64,000 nt of DNA. Origin: Umbilicaria muhlenbergii. Lineage: Eukaryota > Ascomycota > Lecanoromycetes > Umbilicariales > Umbilicariaceae. The DNA lies in the NCBI GenBank assembly GCA_000611775.1, contig KK106985.1, positions 2,394,527 to 2,458,526 on the forward strand, read 5' to 3'. The notes under the pieces were generated by a model. The model had not been told where the DNA came from. It made no database searches and was given only the letters and a program-made list of their open reading frames with translations. Positions 41,235 to 60,200 of the stretch are shown here, one piece after another (positions within the stretch are counted from its first letter, which is position 1; every line of letters starts with the position of its first letter). Both the position numbers and the translations under genes were made by a program.

Positions 41235-41659
41235 TGTAAATGTACTATCATGAGGTAATATCTTAACTAAGGAATTATGAAGCTATGTGACAATAATGAC
41301 TTAAGCTTATAGTTGATGATTCACAATAGTATAGTATTGCTAGTAGGTAGAGAATTATTGTTAAGAAAGAAAGTGAGACATGCTTTAACCTCATAATATA
41401 TCTCTTCTGAAGTTAGCCTGCCTGAGGAAGATCTCATGAAGCAGTCACCTCAGTGAAGCTGTCTTCATAAGGTGTCATCAATGATGTCAACTTCTTTAAT
41501 CATTTTCATGAAGTGTCAGAAGTGATGTTTATCAACTGAGCTTCCTCATGAGATTAATTCATTAATGAAAGTTACCTTCACAAGGTTGTGCTGTTGTTAA
41601 GCATAATTTTTCTTATTCTGAACTAGCACCTGATGAGTTTCATACACTGAATGCTCACA
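41235..41659 (-). repeat. Gypsy-B 3' LTR (425 bp)
   Basis: Plus-strand ends are TGTAAATGTACT and GCTCACA. It aligns with 55037-55491; the differences are transitions apart from one indel. Confidence 0.92.
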
Positions 41660-42441: not shown

Positions 42442-42855
42442 ATGATAATAATTATGAAGACTGAGAACATTTCTCCTCAGATTTGTGAGCTGTGTGTTGC
42501 TGTCACTGCAGGTCATGATCTCAATCATTTTAAAAATTATTTCCTCTTCCCTCATGTCATCAAGTGCATGAAATGTCATCAGCACATTAACAAGGCCTGC
42601 ATCTTCCTCTGTATGACTTTATGATATGTTTTCATGAAGTGCTTTTGTTAACTGTTCACAGCTTCATTTCTGTCACCTTTGACCTCATCATCTTCCTCAC
42701 AGGAACTGAGTCTGCCTTTACTCTCATCTCTGCTCTCAGTCAACCCTGACCCTGAGGGTCACAAGGAGGCGCGCAAGGCGTGCAAGCAGAAGAAACATTA
42801 AATGAGTAAGACTTACAAAGCTGCTGTGACTGCTGTCTAAACTTAAGGTGACCGC
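42442..42855 (+). pseudogene. Cys-rich ORF antisense to Gypsy-B pol (5' part, cut by hAT)
   Basis: Between the polypurine tract of Gypsy-B and its pol 3' end, the plus strand encodes ISPQICELCVAV, VIKCMKCHQHINKACIF and then a Lys-rich NPDPEGHKEARKACK stretch. Two CxxC pairs and a further Cys suggest a zinc-binding segment, as in the better preserved antisense ORF of Gypsy-C. The hAT interrupts it, and a plausible continuation with a CxxC-free C-terminus lies just after 49922. Exact exon limits are uncertain. Confidence 0.5.
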
Positions 42856-43108
42856 CAGGACGGGAGTCTCAGTTCAGGATGAAGGAATGAGATGAGATGA
42901 AATGAGATACAGAATCAAGCAGTAGTCTTGTCTCCTGAGATTAAGATGAGAGTTTCATCTCATCCTGTTCCTTGATCCTAGCAGAATCCTGATCACATGA
43001 CTTCTTATATATGGCTGTCAGTGGTTTTGAGACACGGGGAAAGGTTAATTCAGACACAGGGAAATTAATACATTGTAATGATTCATTATAATGATTTAGA
43101 CTATCAAT

Positions 43109-46100
43109 TTATCTTAATGACTTTAATCTTGACTGTTTTTTTTGCAGCTGTCTCTTGTTACTCAAGACATATCCTAGTCTTGCCCTTGAGCTGATTGATG
43201 TTTTCATGAGTACAGAACTTAAGCTTAATGATTTATCATGCTGACCTGATAGAATTGATAACTCATTTAAGTCTTCAGTTACATCAGTAACATCCTGTAG
43301 CTTTGCAGGTGACCTCATATGATTAACATTAAATGATAATGCTTGAGGCTCATCATCATTCAGCTCATTCACATCATAATCCTCATTCATTAACTCCTCA
43401 GTATCACTGCTTCTTATTAGACAGACAACAATATATTACATTAAGTAACATATCTGAATACTTCAATGACTCATTGTTTTCCTCTCTTATGTGCTGACAT
43501 ATATCCTACTTCACCTTTATGTCTGACATTTGATGCATCACCTTCATCATATGATAAAGAAATGTGAGTAAGACTCTCAGCATCATTCATATTCACTCAC
43601 TGTGTTTCACATTCTTGATCATTAGAGGTGAGTTCATCTGCAGGAGGAGATTAATCATTTTAAATATGTTGTTATATACCTTCCTCATGTGCCACCATAT
43701 CATGAATGTGAGTAGTGTTGCATTTTTTGATTATCATGATGTCAGATATAATGTCTGAGTTGAAGTGACTTCAATGATAAGTAACAACATTTCATGTCAT
43801 GAAAAAAAGGCGCTTCACACCTACATTAATTACTGATATAGCAAGAATGTCCTTTGTCATTTGTGATAAGACAGGCTTACTGATCTTCAACTGTTTTCAT
43901 AAAAGAAGAATGTTGTCATGCTTTAATTTCATTTCATTAAAGTATCATGAGGCTTCACTCCCTTGATAATTTTTCATCTCTCTTGATCTCTGAAGCGTGG
44001 AACTTCTTAAAGTTAGAAGAACACTCTTCAGGGATTTCTTCATCATGTTAAAAGGTGTGAGTTATCATGACTGATACTGAACAGTCTCCTGTTCTTGATA
44101 ATTCACTTCATAATAATCAAGGAACTCTTGTTGATACTGTGCATAATCCTCAGAGTCTCATTCAGCGCCCTGCAGTAGTGATTAGAATATAAAGTTTAAA
44201 ATCATTACAATAAATCATTAGAAATGTTGACTGCTTACCTTGAACAAATCAAGCTTTGAAGAAGAATCAAGGCAGGCACTTACTGCAAACAACACTCCTC
44301 ACTCATCATACATTCACTCATAGTATGCTGAAAGTTTATTCTTTGCCGCTGCAATAGCTTCCTGCAGACTAGAAGATTATTTGAGTTTAAACTTTTAAAC
44401 TTCTTGACGCTGTCACTCTAAATGATTGAAAAGTTCATTATAAGTGATTTAAGTGCAAAAAATGTTTAATTGATCTGTTGCTCTCAGCGCATCTGTAAAG
44501 CTTTAAAATGATTATAATAAACTGATGAGATACCTGACCTGCTCTCATTCAGTGTCATTGAGTATTAAGACTCATCATATAAACTTCTCCTCTTCTATTC
44601 ATTCTCTGCTGAACTCACGCATCTCATATGCTCATTCAAGCATGAAGAAAGAACTGTTTCATCTTATCACAACATCTTCAATTAAGCCCTTCTGCAAATG
44701 AGGGAGTGTATTGATCTGAGTGACTTTATATCTCTCAAGTCATTGTGATGATGAGTTGACTGCAATGAATAATGCAAGAACATGAACGCAAAGTTAATTG
44801 ATCATTATAATATATTATTAGAAAGACTAAAACCTTTCAAAATGTAAAATCAAAGTCTTTATCCTTCTCATGCACCTCTTTTAATTGACTCAGTGTTTTG
44901 ACATCTCACTTTTTTGTAGGATTGTCATTGTTTGCTGACACTTTAAATGAGTGTAGTAGTGCGTTGATGAATAGTTGAAAGACATGTGTCATGCAGTTGA
45001 CAGTATTCATGTCTTCATTTCAATGAATCTTTTATTTTCATAGCAGTGATGTCAGCTTCATGTGCAGTGTTTCATTGTTCAAGGCATTGTCAGCTGTGAT
45101 AACAAGGAGCTTATTCAGGAGCTCATAATTATCAAGCACATTCATTATCACCTTTGTCATATTCTTCTCTGTATGCTTGTCATGAAGAGGGGAGAACTCA
45201 AGAAGAACCTCATGATAATCTCAGTTATCATCTATGAAGTAATCAGTGATGCCAAGAAATGCAAGGTTATTTAAACTTGTTCAATAGTCAAGTGTTAAAG
45301 AAACTTTCATCCTTGATCTTAATTTTATTAACACAGTTTGTTTAAGTTCCTTTGCTCACTTCTTGACAAGGTGAGAGAACTTGATTCAATGAGAAACCTC
45401 AACATCAAGTTAAAGAAAATCAAGCAAGCGTAAAAATGAGGGATGTTCAACTGAGCAGAAAGACATGTTGAGGTTAAGGATTATTTAAACAAGTTGATCC
45501 TCAAAGGCTTCTTGTGTAAATCTGCTAGACGCGGGCTTAGTGAGTACAGAGTTAATGAACTGAAGTCATATCATTAAAATAGATCATTATAACAGGGGTT
45601 TAAAGAAATCAGCACCTTTTGTAATAATTGAGGAAGAGTCATCTGCCCTGTTTAATTCACTTTACAATTTTTGATGCTGATATGCTTTGTCATATCATTG
45701 CTCCCTGCATCATTAAGATTAAGATGTTTCAGAACTTTCTCACAAAGTTTGCAGATAACAGCAGGCTTCTCAGTTTTAATTTCAGCAACCTCATGATATG
45801 ATGCTCACAGCAGAGCCTTTCACTTTGTATTATCTCAGAGAACAAGCTTGTGTCTTGTCACCTTCTTGAGTGTATCCTGACCTCATTTCATTCTCTCTCA
45901 CCACTCTTTGAATTCATCATGAAACTCAAGGATTCAAAGAACATAATCACTCTTTCTGTTTCATAAAAGACATGCTGATGATGATTCAGTGATAAATAAG
46001 AAATCAGCAGAAGTTGACTGTGAAGCTGAAGCTCAATCATCTTCAGAAGTAAGAGTAAATTATGAAGAAGTCATGCTGTCTTAAGATGAATAATGATGTT

Positions 46101-48580
46101 AAAGGGTATGAGAATACAGAAAGCCCTTTGAATTAAACAGTTTATTTGAGTGAAGCTTGAATTTTAATCACTTAATTAAGAAAGTACATACATGCATTGA
46201 ACTAAAGACTAGACTATTCTGAAAAAGAAATTTTAATGCATGATTATGATGATCAATGTCACCTGATGAATCACACAGTCTGATTGATGAAATTAACATT
46301 TGTTGAACAGTCAACATCCTTGAAAATGTCTGATCATGTCAGATAATGCTTATTTACTTCATTGAGATTCAGACTCTGATTCATTCATTTACTCATCATC
46401 TGCATCATCTGCATCATCTGCATTTGCATCATCTGCATTTGCATCACCTGCATTTGCATCACCTGTATTTGCATCATTCATGTTTTCATCCTTAGCCTTT
46501 TCCTCCTCATATCCTGTAGTTACCTCACTCTCTATGAGAATATTATTGTCATCAGAGGCAAAAACAGCTTCAAGATGCTGAATGAAGTCATTAAAGCTCA
46601 TAGTAATTGAGGGAAGATCAGCATCATCCTCATTATCATCTCCTCTAAGAATTTCAGATGACTCTTTGATTATGAAATCAAACATTCAATCATCCTCATT
46701 AAAGTATGCCTCAGATGACTCTGTATGAACTGTCTTAATCTGTGAGTCAGTAATCATGATAGCGTCCTTCTTCAGAACCTGTTGTCTCAGAGCAGAGTAC
46801 AGATAATTAAACAGTTTTAAATAAGTATCATTATAATGAAACATTAAAATGTAAAAGATCTGCACTGACTGCTCTTCTGAATCTTTAATATGATCTGAGT
46901 TCATAATCTGCTTACAGAACTTTCTCATGATGTCAGCTGAGTCAGGATCTTCAGCATCAATTAAGTCTTGAAGATCATTAATTCAGGTGATTCATTCATA
47001 ACACTTCACAGAGACAGCAAGTCTGATGATGACAACTCTCTGATATTCATCATCTTTTGAATCCTGTATAGTCATAAGCATGCGTGATCATTACAAGAGA
47101 TCATTATAATATTATCATAGAGACAAACAGCTCAGATGCAGATTCAAGGTCTTCTCTTAATGTTCTCATTGTGTTGAGAGCTTCTGCACACTCTCATTCC
47201 TCTTTCTGTTGCACTTAATATGCTGCATGACGCAGCTGTTGCTCATGTTGCACTTGAAAGAATTCAGTTATCATTTATGAGTTGATTCTTGAATTGAAAT
47301 GTAGAAAGAAAAACACATATCACTTTCATCAGTATTGAAATGATCTGTTAAAACATTTAATTAATATTTTTCTTTCATAGCCTTTTGATCTGCTGAGTTG
47401 ACGGCTTTTCATGCATCAGTAAGCCTTAGCTTTTTCCTAGCTTGAAAGACAGCAGCTCAATCATGATCATCAGCTTTCAGTAACACTGCTTCATCAGAAT
47501 CCTGCATTCTCTCATGATGAAGTTCACATGCCTCAATCACCTTCTGAGATGTTGTGAAGTATGAGTCAACAGTCTTTTTCAGGCTGAAATCTGTGAAGTT
47601 TTTCATAAGTGCTTCAACAGTCCTGTTTGCTGTCTTGACAGTCACTTTTGCTTGAACCTTTTTCACTATGAACATTTCTTCTTCACCTTCAACATAAATC
47701 AAAGGTTTTGTATATTTATTAAGCGTTTTGAGCGCTAAGAATGCATGATTAGTGATTTCATTACAATAGATCATTAGAATACCTACTGATCTTTGTTTGA
47801 AAACTGTTAATATCACTATCCACTTCAGTCTTTATTCACTTTGTGCGCGGCTTATGAGGGGTAGTAAGAACAGGGGGTGTTGAAGAGTTTAAAATTTGCT
47901 CAGTTTGCACATTCTCATCATCAGATTGCACTGTATGAGCGTGTTTTTTCATTGATGATGTCATCACGGAGGACTCACTCACTTGCATTGATGATGAAGA
48001 GCATTCAGCAAGGCCTGTCATGTATAATCAGTCAATAAATCATTATAACATCTTGTTATAATAAGAAATGTTAAAACTCACTAATGAAGACTTCTGCAAC
48101 AGGTATGACATATGAGTTGCTCACATGAGTTGATGATGAGGAGAGTTCTACAAGACTTATCATGTATAATCAGTTAATAAATCATTATAACATCTTGTTA
48201 GAATAAAAAATGTTAAAACTCATTAATGAAGGCTTCTGCAACAGAGGTAGCTTGAGAATCACTTTCTTGAACTGATGATGATGAGAGTTCTACAAGGCCT
48301 GTCATGTATAATTAGTCAACAGATCATTATATCATCTTTTTTAATAAGAGAAGTTAAAACTCATTAATGAAGCCTTCTTCAACAGGGGTAACACTCATCC
48401 TTAGTAGAGCAGACTGAGCTGACTGATCATAAGGGCTAAAACATGCATCATGAGAGTTATGAGGCTCACCACAAAGGCCAGGACGTGAAATACCATGAGT
48501 AGAAGATGTGCATTCAATGACTGATGAGAAGACTGCTTGCAGGTCAAGAGATAAACAGTTTATAAAAATGTGAATGATTA
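43109..48580 (-). pseudogene. hAT transposase, multi-exon, decayed
   Basis: Read leftward on the minus strand. The Ser-rich N-terminus comes from partly duplicated exons at 48.4-47.9 kb. Unassigned helical/charged exons follow at 47.8-46.4 kb. A BED-type zinc finger (ICKLCEKVLK...MTKHISIKNC) lies near 45770-45655. The catalytic region includes SLTLDY-TSLNNLAFLGITDYFIDDN near 45305-45230 and LLVITADNALNNETLH near 45110-45060, followed by AYYE-MYDE-GVLFAVSACLDSS near 44330-44240. The C-terminal dimerisation block is MTKDILAISVINVGVKRLF near 43870-43805. Trp positions are TGA throughout. Intron signals (GTGAGT...TGACAG, with ATCATTATAA words) recur between exons. No intact reading frame survives. 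Confidence 0.85.
48015..48395 (-). repeat. Three tandem exon-intron units (about 142 bp) in the hAT transposase gene
   Basis: Each unit holds an intron (GTGAGTTTTAAC or its ATGAGT mutant at the start, TACATGACAG at the end) and a short exon encoding a variant of LVELSSSS...AFIN. The units begin near 48015, 48156 and 48297. Only transitions separate most positions. Confidence 0.8.
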
Positions 48581-48838
48581 AGATGAGGGGTGACAGGAAT
48601 TTGAGGTGAGGATGATGTCAACATGATTTTATTAATGCACACTTTAAGCTTAATGTAAAAGCACATGACATTGAAATAACATCATGACCTTCACTCACTT
48701 TATGATCTCAACATCATTCACAATCACATTCACTCACTTTATTATGATCTCAACATCATTCATTATCACAATAAATCATCAGTTCATAACATGTAGGTTC
48801 TGTATTCTCAACATAATGATCATTTCTAACATTTCAGA

Positions 48839-49581
48839 ATGACATGAATGAAACAAATAATGATCAAAGCACCCTGAAAAGCCTCAGTAACTGATGAAAA
48901 GACTGCAGCAAAAGCAAAAGCAAAAGCTGATTCAGCTCATGCTGCGCATGTCAAGGTCAAGGCCAAGGTCAATTCTAGGAAGAAGAAAATCAACACATAA
49001 GTCATCACTGTCATCATCATCATCCTCATCATCAATTATCAACAGCGCCTGGCACAGTATTGTATTGATATTCATGCATGAAGAACAGCTGATGCTGCTG
49101 CAAGAGCAGCAGGAACTTCACATTTAGCTGAAAAGTTTATAATGCTTAAACCTGCTGCATGACCTGATGGTAAGTTATATCAGCATAGTAACAATCAATT
49201 CTAATGATCTATCTCAATGATTGTACAGTTCAAGTGCTGCATGAAATCAAATGATATCAAAAGTCAACAGATCTCCTCATTTTAAAAGCCTCATTCAGTA
49301 GAATTGTTCATGAGATCATGGCTGAAATGATGCTTACTGAGGACATGAGCTTTCAGATACAGCATATCATGTTGAAGGCACTGCAAGAAGTGATGAAAGG
49401 GTACATGATATTCTTCTTTAAAAGTGAGAGTTCTAACCTCCTATTTTTAATGTTATACTAATTCAACTTTTATCTAAACACTCAACTTGCTGTCATTCAC
49501 AGCAAGTGTATCACAATACAGTCAAAGGATTTGACACTTGTGAAGTGATATATGAGTGAATTTGGTGCTTTGGTTCAGTAG
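48839..49581 (+). pseudogene. Histone H3-like gene (CenH3-like features), decayed, inside the hAT
   Basis: Three exons, 48839-49169, 49229-49423 and 49478-49581, total 630 nt and stay in phase (209 codons plus stop). Exon 2 begins with VQVLHEIK then, after a TGA, YQKSTDLLILKASFSRIVHE, matching the H3 alpha-N and alpha-1 region (LREIRRYQKSTELLI...). ALQEVMKGYMIFFFK follows, and exon 3 gives NTQLAVIHSKCITIQSKDLT, the H3 NLCAIHAKRVTIMPKDI block. The alpha-1 to alpha-2 linker is about four residues longer than canonical H3, and the N-terminal tail is about 100 residues and Lys/Ala-rich; both are seen in centromeric H3 variants. The first codons (MT-stop-MKQIMIKAP) could derive from an ARTKQT-like tail. 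Intron 1 is GT...CAG; the acceptor of intron 2 is AA, an expected G-to-A change. Stops are TGA/TAA from C:G to T:A. Confidence 0.82.
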
Positions 49582-49921
49582 ATACAGTTAATCATGCGCA
49601 AATTATATTAAGACTCAATTCAACAGTTCTAACAATCAAATGTAATGATTTATTATGAAATGTAAACTGATGACTCCTTAAATGATGTCTATCTTAATGT
49701 AATATTGTATCAAGCCTCTTTAGGTTAAGCCTAAGTTACTGTCATCATGATGTATTAATGATGCAGGAACAACAGGACTATTTCTGTCTCATTTCATTAA
49801 CAAAATTGAGATGAAACTGAAAAATCATCACTGAGATGAAATGAGATTGAGATGAGACAGAGACTAGAAATTTGATTCTGTCTCATCTCAATGATCATCA
49901 TACCTAGACTCAACACCCCTG

Positions 49922-50249: not shown

Positions 50250-53200
50250 TTATGACTCATGAAGTCTCAAGAAAGTCTTCATGAAACTTCTTAATTAATT
50301 TCTTAAAGTTGTGAGTGTTATCTGCAGACTCTTAAGTAATCTCTGAGGATTTCTTTCACACAATGTAATATTATAAAACAGGTTTATTCTCAGAGCTGAT
50401 CACAATTCATGAAGCTGTTATAACCTCAATCTTTCACTCTCTTTCAGCTGAGTTTTTTGTGAGGTGAAGTGATTTAAACTTTAATGTATCCTCACCTGCC
50501 TGCAGTTTATGATCATAAAGCAGGTTAACATGAAACACATCATGAATATGAAGTTCCTCTGATAGTTTCAGTTGATAAGCAACATTCTCAATCTTCTTTA
50601 TAATCTGAAAGGGTTCATAATGCTGTCAATTCAGCTTTCATGAGGATCACTTCAGAGTTATGTTTTTAATCTTTAATCAGATCAACTGTTCAACTCTATA
50701 AATCATGTCAAGATGAGACTGATTATAATGCTTAACTTGATACTCTTGAAACTTCACAAGAGCTCTGCAGACTTCTATTCAAGTTTTATGAAGATGCTTC
50801 ACAAGCTGCTCAGCTTCAGTGATAATTTCCTTAACTGCAAAGTACTTCATGAGTTCCTCTGCAGTGAGCATATCTGATTTAGATATGAAGTCATAAATGA
50901 CCTCAAATGATGCCTTTTCAGTAGAAGAGTGTAGGCTCACATTGTACATAAACTCAGTTAATATTAAAAGTGAGGCTCAATTGTCCTGTTGATAATTAAC
51001 ATAACTTCACAGGTACTGTTTCAGCATGTTATTTTATTATTCAATCTGCTCATCAGTTTGCAGATGAAAGGCAGTGCTCAATTAATAATTAATCTTCAAT
51101 GTGAACATCAGGTTAACTCAGAGTCATGAGGTAAAAACAGATTTATGATCTGAAATTAAAGCTTGAGTGACTTCATGTAGTTTAATAATCTCTTTAACAA
51201 AGGTCTTCATGAGTTGATCAGCAGTTCAATCCTTTCTGACTGAAATATAATGTGTCATTTTTGAGAATTTGCACATCATCATCAGTATGACATCATACAC
51301 ACCCTCATAAGCATGGCTCTCTGAAAGATCAGTTATGAAGTTTAAGGTGAGTACCTCTCAGGGTCTCTTCAGGATAAGTATGAATTATAATAATTCAAGT
51401 TGCCTTTCATGAATGACTCTGACTCTCTGACAGACAAGACAAGAATTGCAGTATTTCTGAATTTGCTTTCACATGTTCAGTCAGTAATACTTTGCATGTA
51501 TTAAAGTAAAGATTTTCTCTGTCATGAGGTGACTTGCAAGTAACTCATCATGATGCTTCTTAATAATCTCAAGTTGTAATGACTCCACATGAGGTATATA
51601 AAGCACTGAGTTAAAGTATAGAAGGTCATTTCTTCATGATCAGAGTGAGTGAAAACCTGACATTCTTGAATTAACTTCATGAGCAGTGATCTGTTTCAGC
51701 ATATGCTTCATGAGGAGATCAATCTGCAAGAACTCAAGTAACATTTTAATGAGAGAGGTGCTGATCTCCTCATAAAGTTCTTCATTCAAAACAGCCTCAG
51801 AAGCCTGTTTTCATTGATTTCACTGTCAAGAACTTGTTGTGCCTGCAATTAATACCTCATGAAGATGTACCTCCTGAGTTAATAAATCATCTTTAAGCTC
51901 AACTGAAATCAGAATTACTGTCAGGAACAGCATTTGTTGCAATATTAAAGTATTCTCAGTCTGATCCTCTTGTTCTGCTTCATGTTGATGATCAGGTCTT
52001 CATGAAGGGTTGTTAACAGAATTCAGATTTCCCTTCTAATAAGTGATAACAAAATCATAAATTGATAAAGTCAACACTCATTAAACCTGTCTTCATGAGA
52101 GCTTATAAGTAATTATAAAGCTTCACAAGCTCAAATGATCTGATAACACCTCAACTGAATGAGTGAATCCTTTTAAATAGTGCTGTCAATGATGAAAACT
52201 TTTAACTATCATGAGCAGTTCTTCATCATGAGTTTCATACTTTCATTTCACAGGTATCATCTTTCATGAGAAATAAACTGTAACTCTTCACTCATCAGAG
52301 TGCTTTTGTGAGAGAATGCTTGAGATCACATACCCTGAGGCATTCATTTCAAGCTGTATTGATAATGTGATGTTGAAATGCTGCAGGAATGAAGCAGTAG
52401 TGAAAGTCTGCACAAGAATTTTAAAGGCAGTCTGTGTCTTCAAAGACAGAAAGTCTGCCCTTCATGAGATCAACTTCTTGTTTAATTTTGCATTAAACCC
52501 TTTAATGATCTCTGTGAGAGGTGCAGTGATATATGAGAAGCCCTGTATGAACCTTCAGTAGAAATTCATGAAGCTCAGAAATGTTTACACTTCATGCACA
52601 CTTTTTGACTCTGATCAGTTGATAATGATGAATATGTGATTCATCTTCATTTCAACCTTCATATCTGTGATAACATATCTCAAGAAGGGCACACGCTTCA
52701 CATTAAATAAACATTTAAAAAGCTTTGCAAACAACTTTGCTGTGAGTAGAGTTTTCAAGATAATCTGAACATGCTGTTCATGCTGACTCTCTTTCATTAA
52801 GTAAATCAGTATATCATTTAAGAATACAATCATGAAGATGTTTAGATGTTCATGAAGGACTTCATGAATATAAGACTGAAAACTCACAGAAGCATTGATA
52901 AGCTCAAAAAACATAATTAAGTATTCATACAACTCATACTTAGTATGAAAGGCTGTCTTTCACTCATCACCCTCAAATATGAAAATGTGATAATAAATGT
53001 TTTTAACATCAATCTTCATAAAGATCTGAGCATCACAGACATGATTTATGATCTCATCAATTAATGATAAAGAGTACTGATTCTTTTAAGTAATAACATT
53101 TAACCTCTGATAATTCATGCAGAGCTGCAAGCCTTCATCATTTTTAAATGCAAAAAGCACTGATGCTCTCACTGAAGATCATGACGGCTGAATAAACTCA

Positions 53201-55036: not shown

Positions 55037-55491
55037 TGTAAGTGTACTATCATGAGGTAATATCTTAACTAAGGAATTATGAAGTTATGTGACAATAATG
55101 ACTTAAACTTATAGTTGGTGGTTCACAATAGTATGATATTACTAGTAGGTAGAGAATTATTGTTAAGAAAGAAAGTGAGACATGTTTTAACCTCATAATA
55201 TATCTCTTCTGAAGTTAGCCTGCCTGAGGAAGATCTCATGAAGCAGTCACCTCAGTGAAACTGCCTTCATGAGGTGTTCATTGCTGAATCACACCTTCAT
55301 GAGGTGTCATCAATGATGTTAACTTCTTTAATCACTTTCATGAAGTGTTGAGAGTGATGTTTATCAGCTGAGCTCCCTCATGAGATTAATTCATTAGTGA
55401 AAGTTACCTTTGCAAGGCTGTGCTGTTGTTAAATATAATTTTTTTTATTTTAAACTAGCACCTGATGAGTTCTGTACATCAGATGCTCACA
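55037..55491 (-). repeat. Gypsy-B 5' LTR (455 bp)
   Basis: Plus-strand ends are TGTAAGTGTACT and GCTCACA. It is 30 bp longer than the other copy because of a short tandem duplication of the CCTTCATGAGGTGT area near 55265-55305. Confidence 0.92.
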
Positions 55492-57249: not shown

Positions 57250-60200
57250 AGTGTATTCACATAGTGGGTGAAAGTTCAAGCTCATAGTTGACGCTTCTCT
57301 TAGTTTTTGCAATTTGAAAAGGTCTCAACTTCATGTGGTTCAATTTATTGCTAAGTCGTTTAATCTTGATATTGTGATGTAGAAGGTATACTTTATCCTT
57401 CTTTTTGAGAGTAGGTCCCTTATCTCTCTTTTTATTATAATATATCACTGATCTTTCTGAGGCAAATTTGATGTTCCTTTGTAGCATTTCATGCAGGTCC
57501 TTGAGGTGATTCACTTATACTCTTGCTCTCTGTGCTATCATTACTAGTCCCCTGGCCTCATTCATAGCCGGGTTGAAACTGTAGTTGATGTAAAATGATG
57601 ATACTTTAGTTGTCTCTGTTGCTGCTGAGTTGTAAGTTAACTGAGCTATTGATAAGAGTTCTACTCAATTAGTTTGCTGATAATTAACATAACACTGTAG
57701 GTACTGTTTCATAGTTTGATTTAATCATTCTGTTTGCCCGTCCATTTGAGGATGATATGATGTTGATAACTTGTGATGTATTCCCAGCTGGTTCACTAAT
57801 GATTTTCAGAACTTGAAGGTAAAGAGTTTATTCTTATCAGAGATTATCTCCTCTGGCAGTTCATGATTGACTGTTATAACTTTTAAGAACATATATGCAA
57901 GTTCTTCTGCTGATGATGCTTCATTATAAGGTATGAAGTATTCATACTTCATGAGTCTATCAGTGATAATTAATATTGAATCATAAACTGCTTTCATCAG
58001 GGGTTCTTTCAACTTTGATAGCTTAATCACAAAGTTTAATGTGATGCTTGCTCATGGTCTTGATGATGTCCTTGATGACTTGAGTAAACTGTATGACTTA
58101 TGTTGATCTGCTTTGCTTCTTCAGCAGATGTCACATTTTTAAATGATTTCCTCAATCTTCTTCCTCATGTGTGGGAAGTAGTATGTCCTTGTGAGTCATT
58201 TTATCATCTTGTCAATTCCTTGGTGACTGTGTGTCTTGTTGAAATGACTTTCTTCCATTAGTTTTCATTGAAGACTAACAGGAACATAGATCAAGCCTTA
58301 AAAAAGTAGTAAGTTTTTCTCCTTTTTGAAGCTTTCATGATCTTTAATATTCTGAAAAACCTGCTGTGCTAGCTTATCATTCTTCAATGCTTTTTGAATC
58401 TCATTTTCAAAAACATCATCTTTTACCTGTATGATGAGGTTGAACTGTCTGTTGAAAGACATGTTCCCTTGCTTATCCTCCTGAAGAATAACATGACTGA
58501 TGACTGACTTATCTTGTAAGTAATCAGCTCATTAACTGAGAGTGTCTGCTTTGACATTCTCTGATCCTTTTTGATAATGAATTCTGAAATTGTACTGTGA
58601 CAATTCTTCTGACCAACATACCTGTCTTCAATTTAAGACTTTCATTGTCATGAAATACAACAGATTTTTATGATCTGAGTATACCTGAACCTCATGTTTA
58701 GGTCCTTTCAAATACACATGTCATTGCTTGAATGTGTCAACAATAGTTAACAGCTCCTTGTCATGTATTTCATAGCTCATTTCAGCACTTGAGAACTTTC
58801 TCAAATAGAAAGCTACTGGCTGTAGATGTCTCTTATCATCTGACTGATTGATGCATGCTTTTATAGCTTCATCTGACGCGTTCATCTTGAGTGTAATAGG
58901 TTTCTCAGGGTTGAAACTCATGAGAATCAGTTGAGAAGTGAATCTCTTCTTCAACTCATCAAAGACTTTCTGTGCTTCAGGTGATCACTTGAATTTCTGA
59001 TCTTTCTTGATCAACTCTGTTAGAGGTGATGTGATCTTCAAATACTTTTTAATAAACTTCTTATAGAAGTTTGTGAACTCAAGGAAGAACTGTACTTCCT
59101 TGATGTTCTTTAATACTGATCATTCAATCACAGATCATATCTTCTCAGAGTTCATTCATAACCCTTCTGATGTTACAATGAAACCTAGGAAGTGTACTTC
59201 TTTGAAATGAAAAAGACTTTTCTCAGGCTTTACCTGTAGTCCTGCATCTTGAAGCGCCTGTAAGATCTTACAGACATGCTGAACATGCTGCTCCTTCAAC
59301 TTGAAGTAGATCAGTATGTCGTCAAGGTAAATGACTACAAACTGATTTAAATATTCTCACAGCATGTTATTAATAAAAGCCTGAAAAGTTACTGGCGTGT
59401 TTGTCAATCTGAAAGGCATTATCAGATACTCATAGAGTCTGAACCTTGTTCAGAATGCAGTTTTTCATTCATCTCCTTCTTTGATATGAATCTGGTTGAA
59501 GGCTCCTGAAATATTGAATTTAATGAATCATTACACTCTCTGAAATTGATCCTGCAATTCTGAAATGAGCAGCAAAGGGTAACTGTTCTTGATGATAATG
59601 TTGTTCAATGCTCAATAGTTGACACACAATCTGAGTGAATCATCTGATTTTGGTATGAACAGTATTGAATATTCAGCTGAAGATTATGATTCTCATATGA
59701 ATCCTTTTTGCAAATTCTCCTCTAAGTATTCTCATAAAGCGTTTAACTTCTGAGGTGACAATGAGTAGATAGATTGCTTCATTGATGTGCAACCTTTCAT
59801 AATCTTTATTTCATGATCTCATTCTTGATGTTTAAGCAAGGCGTCCTGATCCTTTACAGCTGTAAACAATTCCTTGAAGTCTTTGTATTCTTTAGAGATA
59901 GATAGCTTGATAACAGAGTCTCAGTCATCATCAACTCACCTGCTTCATAATATCTTCATGTCAAGATTCCTCAGTTCCTCATGTGTTTCTTCTGCTGACA
60001 TAATGAAGATCTTCACACCTTCAGGTGAGTTCAGGACTGAATATAACTTATTAAGATTATCACCCTTAACAAAGTATATCTCATTTTCAGCTCAATCAAT
60101 CATTGAATTGATCACTCAGAGTCATGATATCCTCAGGACTATATCACTCCCTGATTGCTCTATTATGTTGAATTGAATCTTCTCTCAATGTTGACCTAAA

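Follow-up and report, generated by a model that had tools for sequence, protein, structure and literature searches.

Why does a DNA transposon of Umbilicaria muhlenbergii carry a gene for a histone of the H3 type, and is that gene accidental baggage or a working part of the element? The locus lies in a window of 64,000 bp, the whole stretch of DNA analysed (C5:2394527-2458526; contig KK106985.1 of assembly GCA_000611775.1), within a genome of 34.8 Mb in 7 contigs; positions given below without a contig are those of the window. The first 32 kb of the window have a G+C content of 0.53 and an observed/expected CpG ratio of 0.90. This gene-like half, with a CpG ratio of about 0.9, gives way between 32000 and 36000 to a mutated half rich in repeats (0.03-0.16), in which the element at 42844-49902 has a G+C content of 0.35 and a CpG ratio of 0.14, with adjoining blocks down to 0.03. 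The CpG-depleted half also holds, beside the element, Gypsy-like pol pieces on the minus strand at 52615-52959 (PF00078, E 5.2e-9) and 58721-59356 (by eye from open reading frames), and one AT-rich, LTR-like sequence lies at both flanks of the region (about 41240-41650 and 55040-55480, by eye).

The H3-like gene, here called H3L, occupies 48839-49581 on the plus strand and consists of three exons in phase totalling 630 nt, as the preliminary description of this locus had it. Exon 1 (48839-49169) holds the start codon and a long tail rich in lysine and alanine, exon 2 (49229-49423) holds alpha-N, alpha-1, loop 1 and alpha-2, and exon 3 (49478-49581) holds the IHxK..TIQSKD block and the stop codon TAG (49579-49581). 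The H3 histone fold claimed for it is borne out by profile searches: the middle exon alone falls just short of the cut-off for PF00125 (E 9.3e-6, 26.3 bits vs 26.4), the six-frame search of the genome places a match at C5:2443760-2443945 above the cut-off (E 2.2e-6), and a sister copy with fewer mutations, L022, shows a complete H3-type histone fold once spliced (E 1.3e-19). Against the PDB, the middle exon matches Cse4 and H3 chains, with Cse4 best (E 3.4e-6), and the L022 fold matches H3 and Cse4 with E 1.9e-19 and 4.1e-19, respectively. The window copy is dead, with seven in-frame stops (six TGA and one TAA) and one lost splice acceptor, the last (49476-49477), which reads AA in this copy vs AG in most others.

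Comparison with other copies set the ends of the surrounding hAT element at 42844 and 49902 (7,059 bp). Its 8-bp target-site duplications, TCTAAACT at 42836-42843 and CCTAGACT at 49903-49910, are identical at 6/8 positions, both mismatches being transitions; among six other copies the duplications are 8/8 identical in five and 6/8 in the sixth. The left terminal inverted repeat (42844-42873, plus strand) begins TAAGGTGACCGCC and reads TAGGGTGACCGCC in copy L032, and the right one (49873-49902, minus strand) begins TATGGTGGCTGTT in copy L021; the repeats are imperfect, and differences between L032 and L021, like those between the window's left repeat and the right end of L021, are mostly transitions. 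On the minus strand lie the hAT dimerisation domain of the transposase (PF05699, 43726-43950; E 3.7e-4, above the curated cut-off, with four TGA codons within), a transposase core (44924-45307) and a BED-zinc-finger-like transposase start (45655-45762, the end coordinate approximate; PF02892 E 0.044, below the cut-off). PF05699 scores above its cut-off in six copies of this family, the window copy included, and in one copy of a second family described below. That the window holds such an element, with these ends and a gene with a histone fold, is demonstrated, and an H3 gene lying within hAT termini is what the preliminary description had proposed.

That description had also put the transposase start about 260 nt from H3L and divergent from it. 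The divergent layout holds, and the distance probably does not: the core and the BED-like start near 45762 lie farther off, and the start at about 260 nt probably belongs to a central gene. This acidic gene (46389-47831, minus strand; open pieces at 46389-46685, 46686-46982 and 47457-47831) appears to be separate from the transposase, and a Pfam search of the central region gave no match above a cut-off. A 142-bp tandem repeat of 2.9 copies (47975-48386) may, when read on the minus strand, represent repeated short exons of the central gene with their introns.

The gene travels with the element. In this family, A, 18 of the 41 rows matched by the H3 segment are 400 bp or longer, and they represent 17 loci; the 531-bp left end gives 37 rows, of which 18 are long, at 18 loci. 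For 16 of these 18 left ends an H3 segment lies on the side where it is expected, no more than about 17 kb away, and in two of the 16 it is partial. In one exception (C2:2695075) the transposase segment is interrupted and broken up, and in the other (C2:3319336) the expected side passes beyond the sequence covered. H3L is accordingly integral to the element, and hAT copies lacking the H3 segment, with that segment flanked by a duplication of its own, were not seen among the 18 left-end elements. At least 16 short elements on C1 and other contigs have both A ends (paired by eye) without the genes, as non-autonomous derivatives do.

All 16 family A gene rows aligned carry in-frame stops (15 elements, L028 giving two rows; L037 and L042 fail to align over exon 1, L025 is without the last exon and L019 has N at its start), so the A copies examined are not expected to work today. 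Against L022, 14 of 15 rows have no transversion (13 over 801 sites, L025 over 606), and L021 has four. Among the copies, C/T or G/A differences make up 216 of the 220 variable columns. The damage is not simply CpG-directed repeat-induced point mutation (RIP): a G/A column comes directly after 30 of the 104 C/T columns, vs about 14 expected, so most are not of the CpG type. Stops in every row, and copies that differ almost only by transitions, as after a recent burst followed by RIP, are what would be seen if a host H3 gene had been captured by chance and amplified as useless cargo. Such passive transduplication is the published view of similar elements, as described for Pyrenophora (Manning et al., 2013) and Pseudocercospora (Dhillon et al., 2019), and the wider genome bears on it.

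The gene had been called CenH3-like, and its protein was suggested perhaps to mark the transposon's chromatin or to steer insertion. In family A, loop 1 is indeed four residues longer than in host H3, as claimed, and equal in length to that of host CenH3 in the alignment; the first exon encodes a long, divergent tail of about 110 codons, and among PDB chains the middle exon matches Cse4 best. Each of the six H3L types compared, from families A, B and D and a remnant, C, is nevertheless nearer to host H3 than to host CenH3: identities to the two are 48 and 43% for A, 45 and 34% for C, 44 and 36% for D, 51 and 47% for B1a, 54 and 47% for B2, and 55 and 49% for B3. Loop 1 is longer in A, B1, C and D and of H3 length in B2 and B3. 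On these identities and loop lengths the reading of H3L as a CenH3 is rejected, and they indicate that the H3Ls are H3-derived variants, the loop length of A probably being convergent. A CenH3 mimic that directs insertion to centromeres is very improbable, the D copies also lying at several places per chromosome (by eye, from positions alone).

The tails of A, B2 and B3 give no clear sign of H3 ancestry. The sequence ARTKQTARKS is absent from the A rows aligned. An apparent KQ...KAPxK correspondence between the A tail and the H3 tail was refuted by shuffling, since for two A tails 4,343 and 2,082 of 5,000 shuffles scored as well; for the B3 and B2 tails, 1,191 and 482 of 5,000 shuffles, respectively, were as good. 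The tails of A, B2 and B3 are not recognisable as H3 tails.

Two further families of the same genome carry H3L. A family B element of 11.2 kb at about C2:6621257-6632492 (L011 and L029) is bounded by terminal repeats that match each other (by eye). PF05699 lies on its plus strand, and the minus strand, opposite the transposase, carries four H3-like genes: two copies of B1 and one each of B2 and B3, making three kinds. A second B locus, from C3:3464138, also has four H3-like genes, and four more B loci are truncated or interrupted. Target duplications of B, compared by eye, gave no match. The first 148 bp of the B element also occur in short elements elsewhere (35 of 40 rows among the matches listed).

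A search with the A transposase core returned 61 rows: 16 belong to A, 5 to B and 31 to a third group, D, and the remaining 9 to none of these. The D cores include ones about 4 kb from H3-like matches at C2:2376263 and C1:3988019, and the D histone segment, used as a query, gave at least 43 rows, with 40 of 85 candidates scored. Pairing of cores with 37 D-H3L rows placed an H3L within 8 kb of 20 of the 31 D cores, all 20 divergent and 13 at 3.8-4.1 kb, and within 20 kb of 27, of which 23 are divergent. As a control, which takes no account of repeat clustering, 2,000 random placements yielded on average 0.15 divergent pairs within 8 kb and never more than 3. The other 11 D cores have no D-H3L match within 8 kb among the candidates scored (40 of 85). 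Remnant C (L045, C1:2171830-2172003), an AT-rich, H3-like sequence near family A but assigned to no family, sits about 9 kb from one of the six PF05699 loci outside the H3L-bearing clade. These six loci have no PF00125 match within 8 kb, an absence of little weight because this profile caught only two D copies.

The three families have homologous, diverged transposase cores. Identity is 39% over 135 aa between A and B (E 1e-29), 37-46% between A and D rows and 28-38% between B and D rows, and the H3L folds differ between families to a similar degree (35-48% identity). H3L is present in A, B and D, in each divergent from the transposase. The A, B and D genes are not intronless: judged by eye from the splice sites, one intron lies near KPG and another where alpha-2 ends. 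The latter is a phase-1 intron at the same codon in A, B1, B2, B3 and D, namely the codon after F-x (F-E, F-S, F-N or F-K), before the x-L-x-x-I-H block. Neither host H3 nor host CenH3 (L001 and L002) has a break at this site, their introns lying after RVTI and SRLV, respectively. In a protein tree of the short folds, 7 of 10 inner branches stayed open and H3L was not resolved as a single clade, so a single origin rests on the layout, the intron and the kinship of the transposases.

These features also bear on a second possibility, that related hATs captured one H3-variant source gene several times and took the intron from it. The shared intron and the similar folds fit several captures as well as one, the tree is unresolved, and within one element B1 is only 50-51% identical to B2 and B3. 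The same divergent position beside the transposase in A, B and D, and the lack of that intron in both host H3-type genes read, speak against it, and we regard repeated capture as quite unlikely. We infer instead a single acquisition of H3L, predating the split of A, B and D, and its later maintenance by selection. That three hAT families carry it suggests an old working part rather than accidental baggage.

RIP makes only transitions. Transversions, which it cannot produce, were therefore counted in ten pairs among the A, B1a, B1b, B2 and B3 genes, with D left out. They amount to 0.03-0.26 per site at codon positions 1 and 2 and 0.07-0.50 at fourfold sites, and are rarer at the former in all ten pairs (ratio 0.34-0.65), with P<0.05 in five (A-B3, B1a-B2, B1b-B2, B1b-B3 and B2-B3). 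Because the ten pairs overlap and are not independent, and the site numbers are small, the result is support rather than proof, and it suggests purifying selection between the A and B genes. Counting of this kind could be used to search for past selection in genes mutated by RIP. The hint of constraint, the retention of four H3L genes in one family, and the same layout and same-codon intron in three families with cores 28-46% identical all weigh against useless cargo, which we consider unlikely. The window element is probably a dead copy of an old hAT clade in which H3L was a standing component, acquired once and retained by selection as helpful.

The preliminary description knew of no hAT element with an H3 gene; two papers, as far as their accounts go, describe such elements, and hAT elements with H3-like genes are known already from Pyrenophora (2013) and from Pseudocercospora and relatives (2019). 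In Pyrenophora tritici-repentis, a 5.6-kb hAT is described with a transposase, a central ORF and a gene named H3L, in 10 long copies of about 5.6 kb and 16 copies of a 2.3-kb recombinant that are near-identical, mostly intact and represented by ESTs (Manning et al., 2013; PMC3538342). Its H3L is reported to match neither H3 nor CenH3, and the authors speak of transduplication and propose drift of the gene (PMC3538342). Likened by that description, the elements here are larger (7.1 kb in A and about 11.2 kb in B), fall into at least three diverged families, and are known from DNA alone as copies broken in a RIP-like manner.

In Pseudocercospora fijiensis, 784 RIP-killed H3-like copies lie, within AT-rich blocks, in hAT elements of about 9.5 kb with 20-bp inverted repeats, 8-bp target duplications and one or two H3-like genes each, the RIP being of the CpA type; similar events are given for five further genomes of Pseudocercospora, Cercospora and Sphaerulina (Dhillon et al., 2019; PMC6710886). 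The same account derives the intronless H3L from a captured spliced transcript, independent of the Pyrenophora case (PMC6710886), and the P. fijiensis case is mentioned again in PMC13041039. By description, the hAT ends, 8-bp duplications, H3-like genes, RIP-killed state and AT-rich setting agree with the elements here, whereas ours have introns in H3L, strong CpG depletion and four H3Ls in one element. With the published elements family A shares, as far as these are described, an H3-like gene that lies between hAT ends and was amplified with the element.

An H3-bearing hAT of the same kind had probably been met before these, as repeat R25 of Stagonospora nodorum. The paper concerned, by Hane and Oliver, dates from 2010. 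It describes R25 as RIP-degraded, with weak similarity to DNA transposons and histone H3, and files it as an endogenous gene region (PMC3017866).

Beyond what PMC3538342 and PMC6710886 describe, and within a literature search whose scope excluded preprints and most subscription journals, four points are new, and they argue for an old, retained gene: the coexistence of several families, an element with four H3-like genes, an intron common to the families, and the pattern of transversions. Both papers, by their accounts, take H3 genes in hATs as independent captures (Manning et al., 2013; Dhillon et al., 2019); one old retained acquisition fits the present families better.

How the protein might have served can be put only conditionally. 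An H3-derived H3L would have been taken up once by a hAT ancestor before A, B and D split, and would have been kept by selection because it helped the element, standing beside the transposase as a regular component together with, at least in A, the central gene. H3 pairs with H4. From its recognisable fold and the kept IHxK block, H3L most likely paired with host H4, and it may have replaced H3 in nucleosomes on the element or on target DNA. Such chromatin might escape the usual marking and silencing, so that the transposase could act; our best guess is that H3L nucleosomes favour transposition or resist silencing. A defence against silencing is plausible because the genome holds DNA-methyltransferase-type genes (PF00145, four matches).

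A more specific form of the idea, which we put forward as a doubtful one, is that this hAT clade encodes its own nucleosome component, an H3 variant whose tail (in A, B2 and B3) is without ARTKQTARKS and which acts as an anti-silencing histone. If so, H3L chromatin would withstand silencing through H3K9 together with the associated RIP and DNA methylation, and a mobile element would have kept an anti-silencing histone throughout the divergence of its transposase, with four paralogues in one family. More broadly, if three diverged families co-inherited H3L under constraint, a histone variant would be a working transposon part, which would make it possible to ask directly what a transposon does with nucleosomes and whether evading silencing is the purpose.
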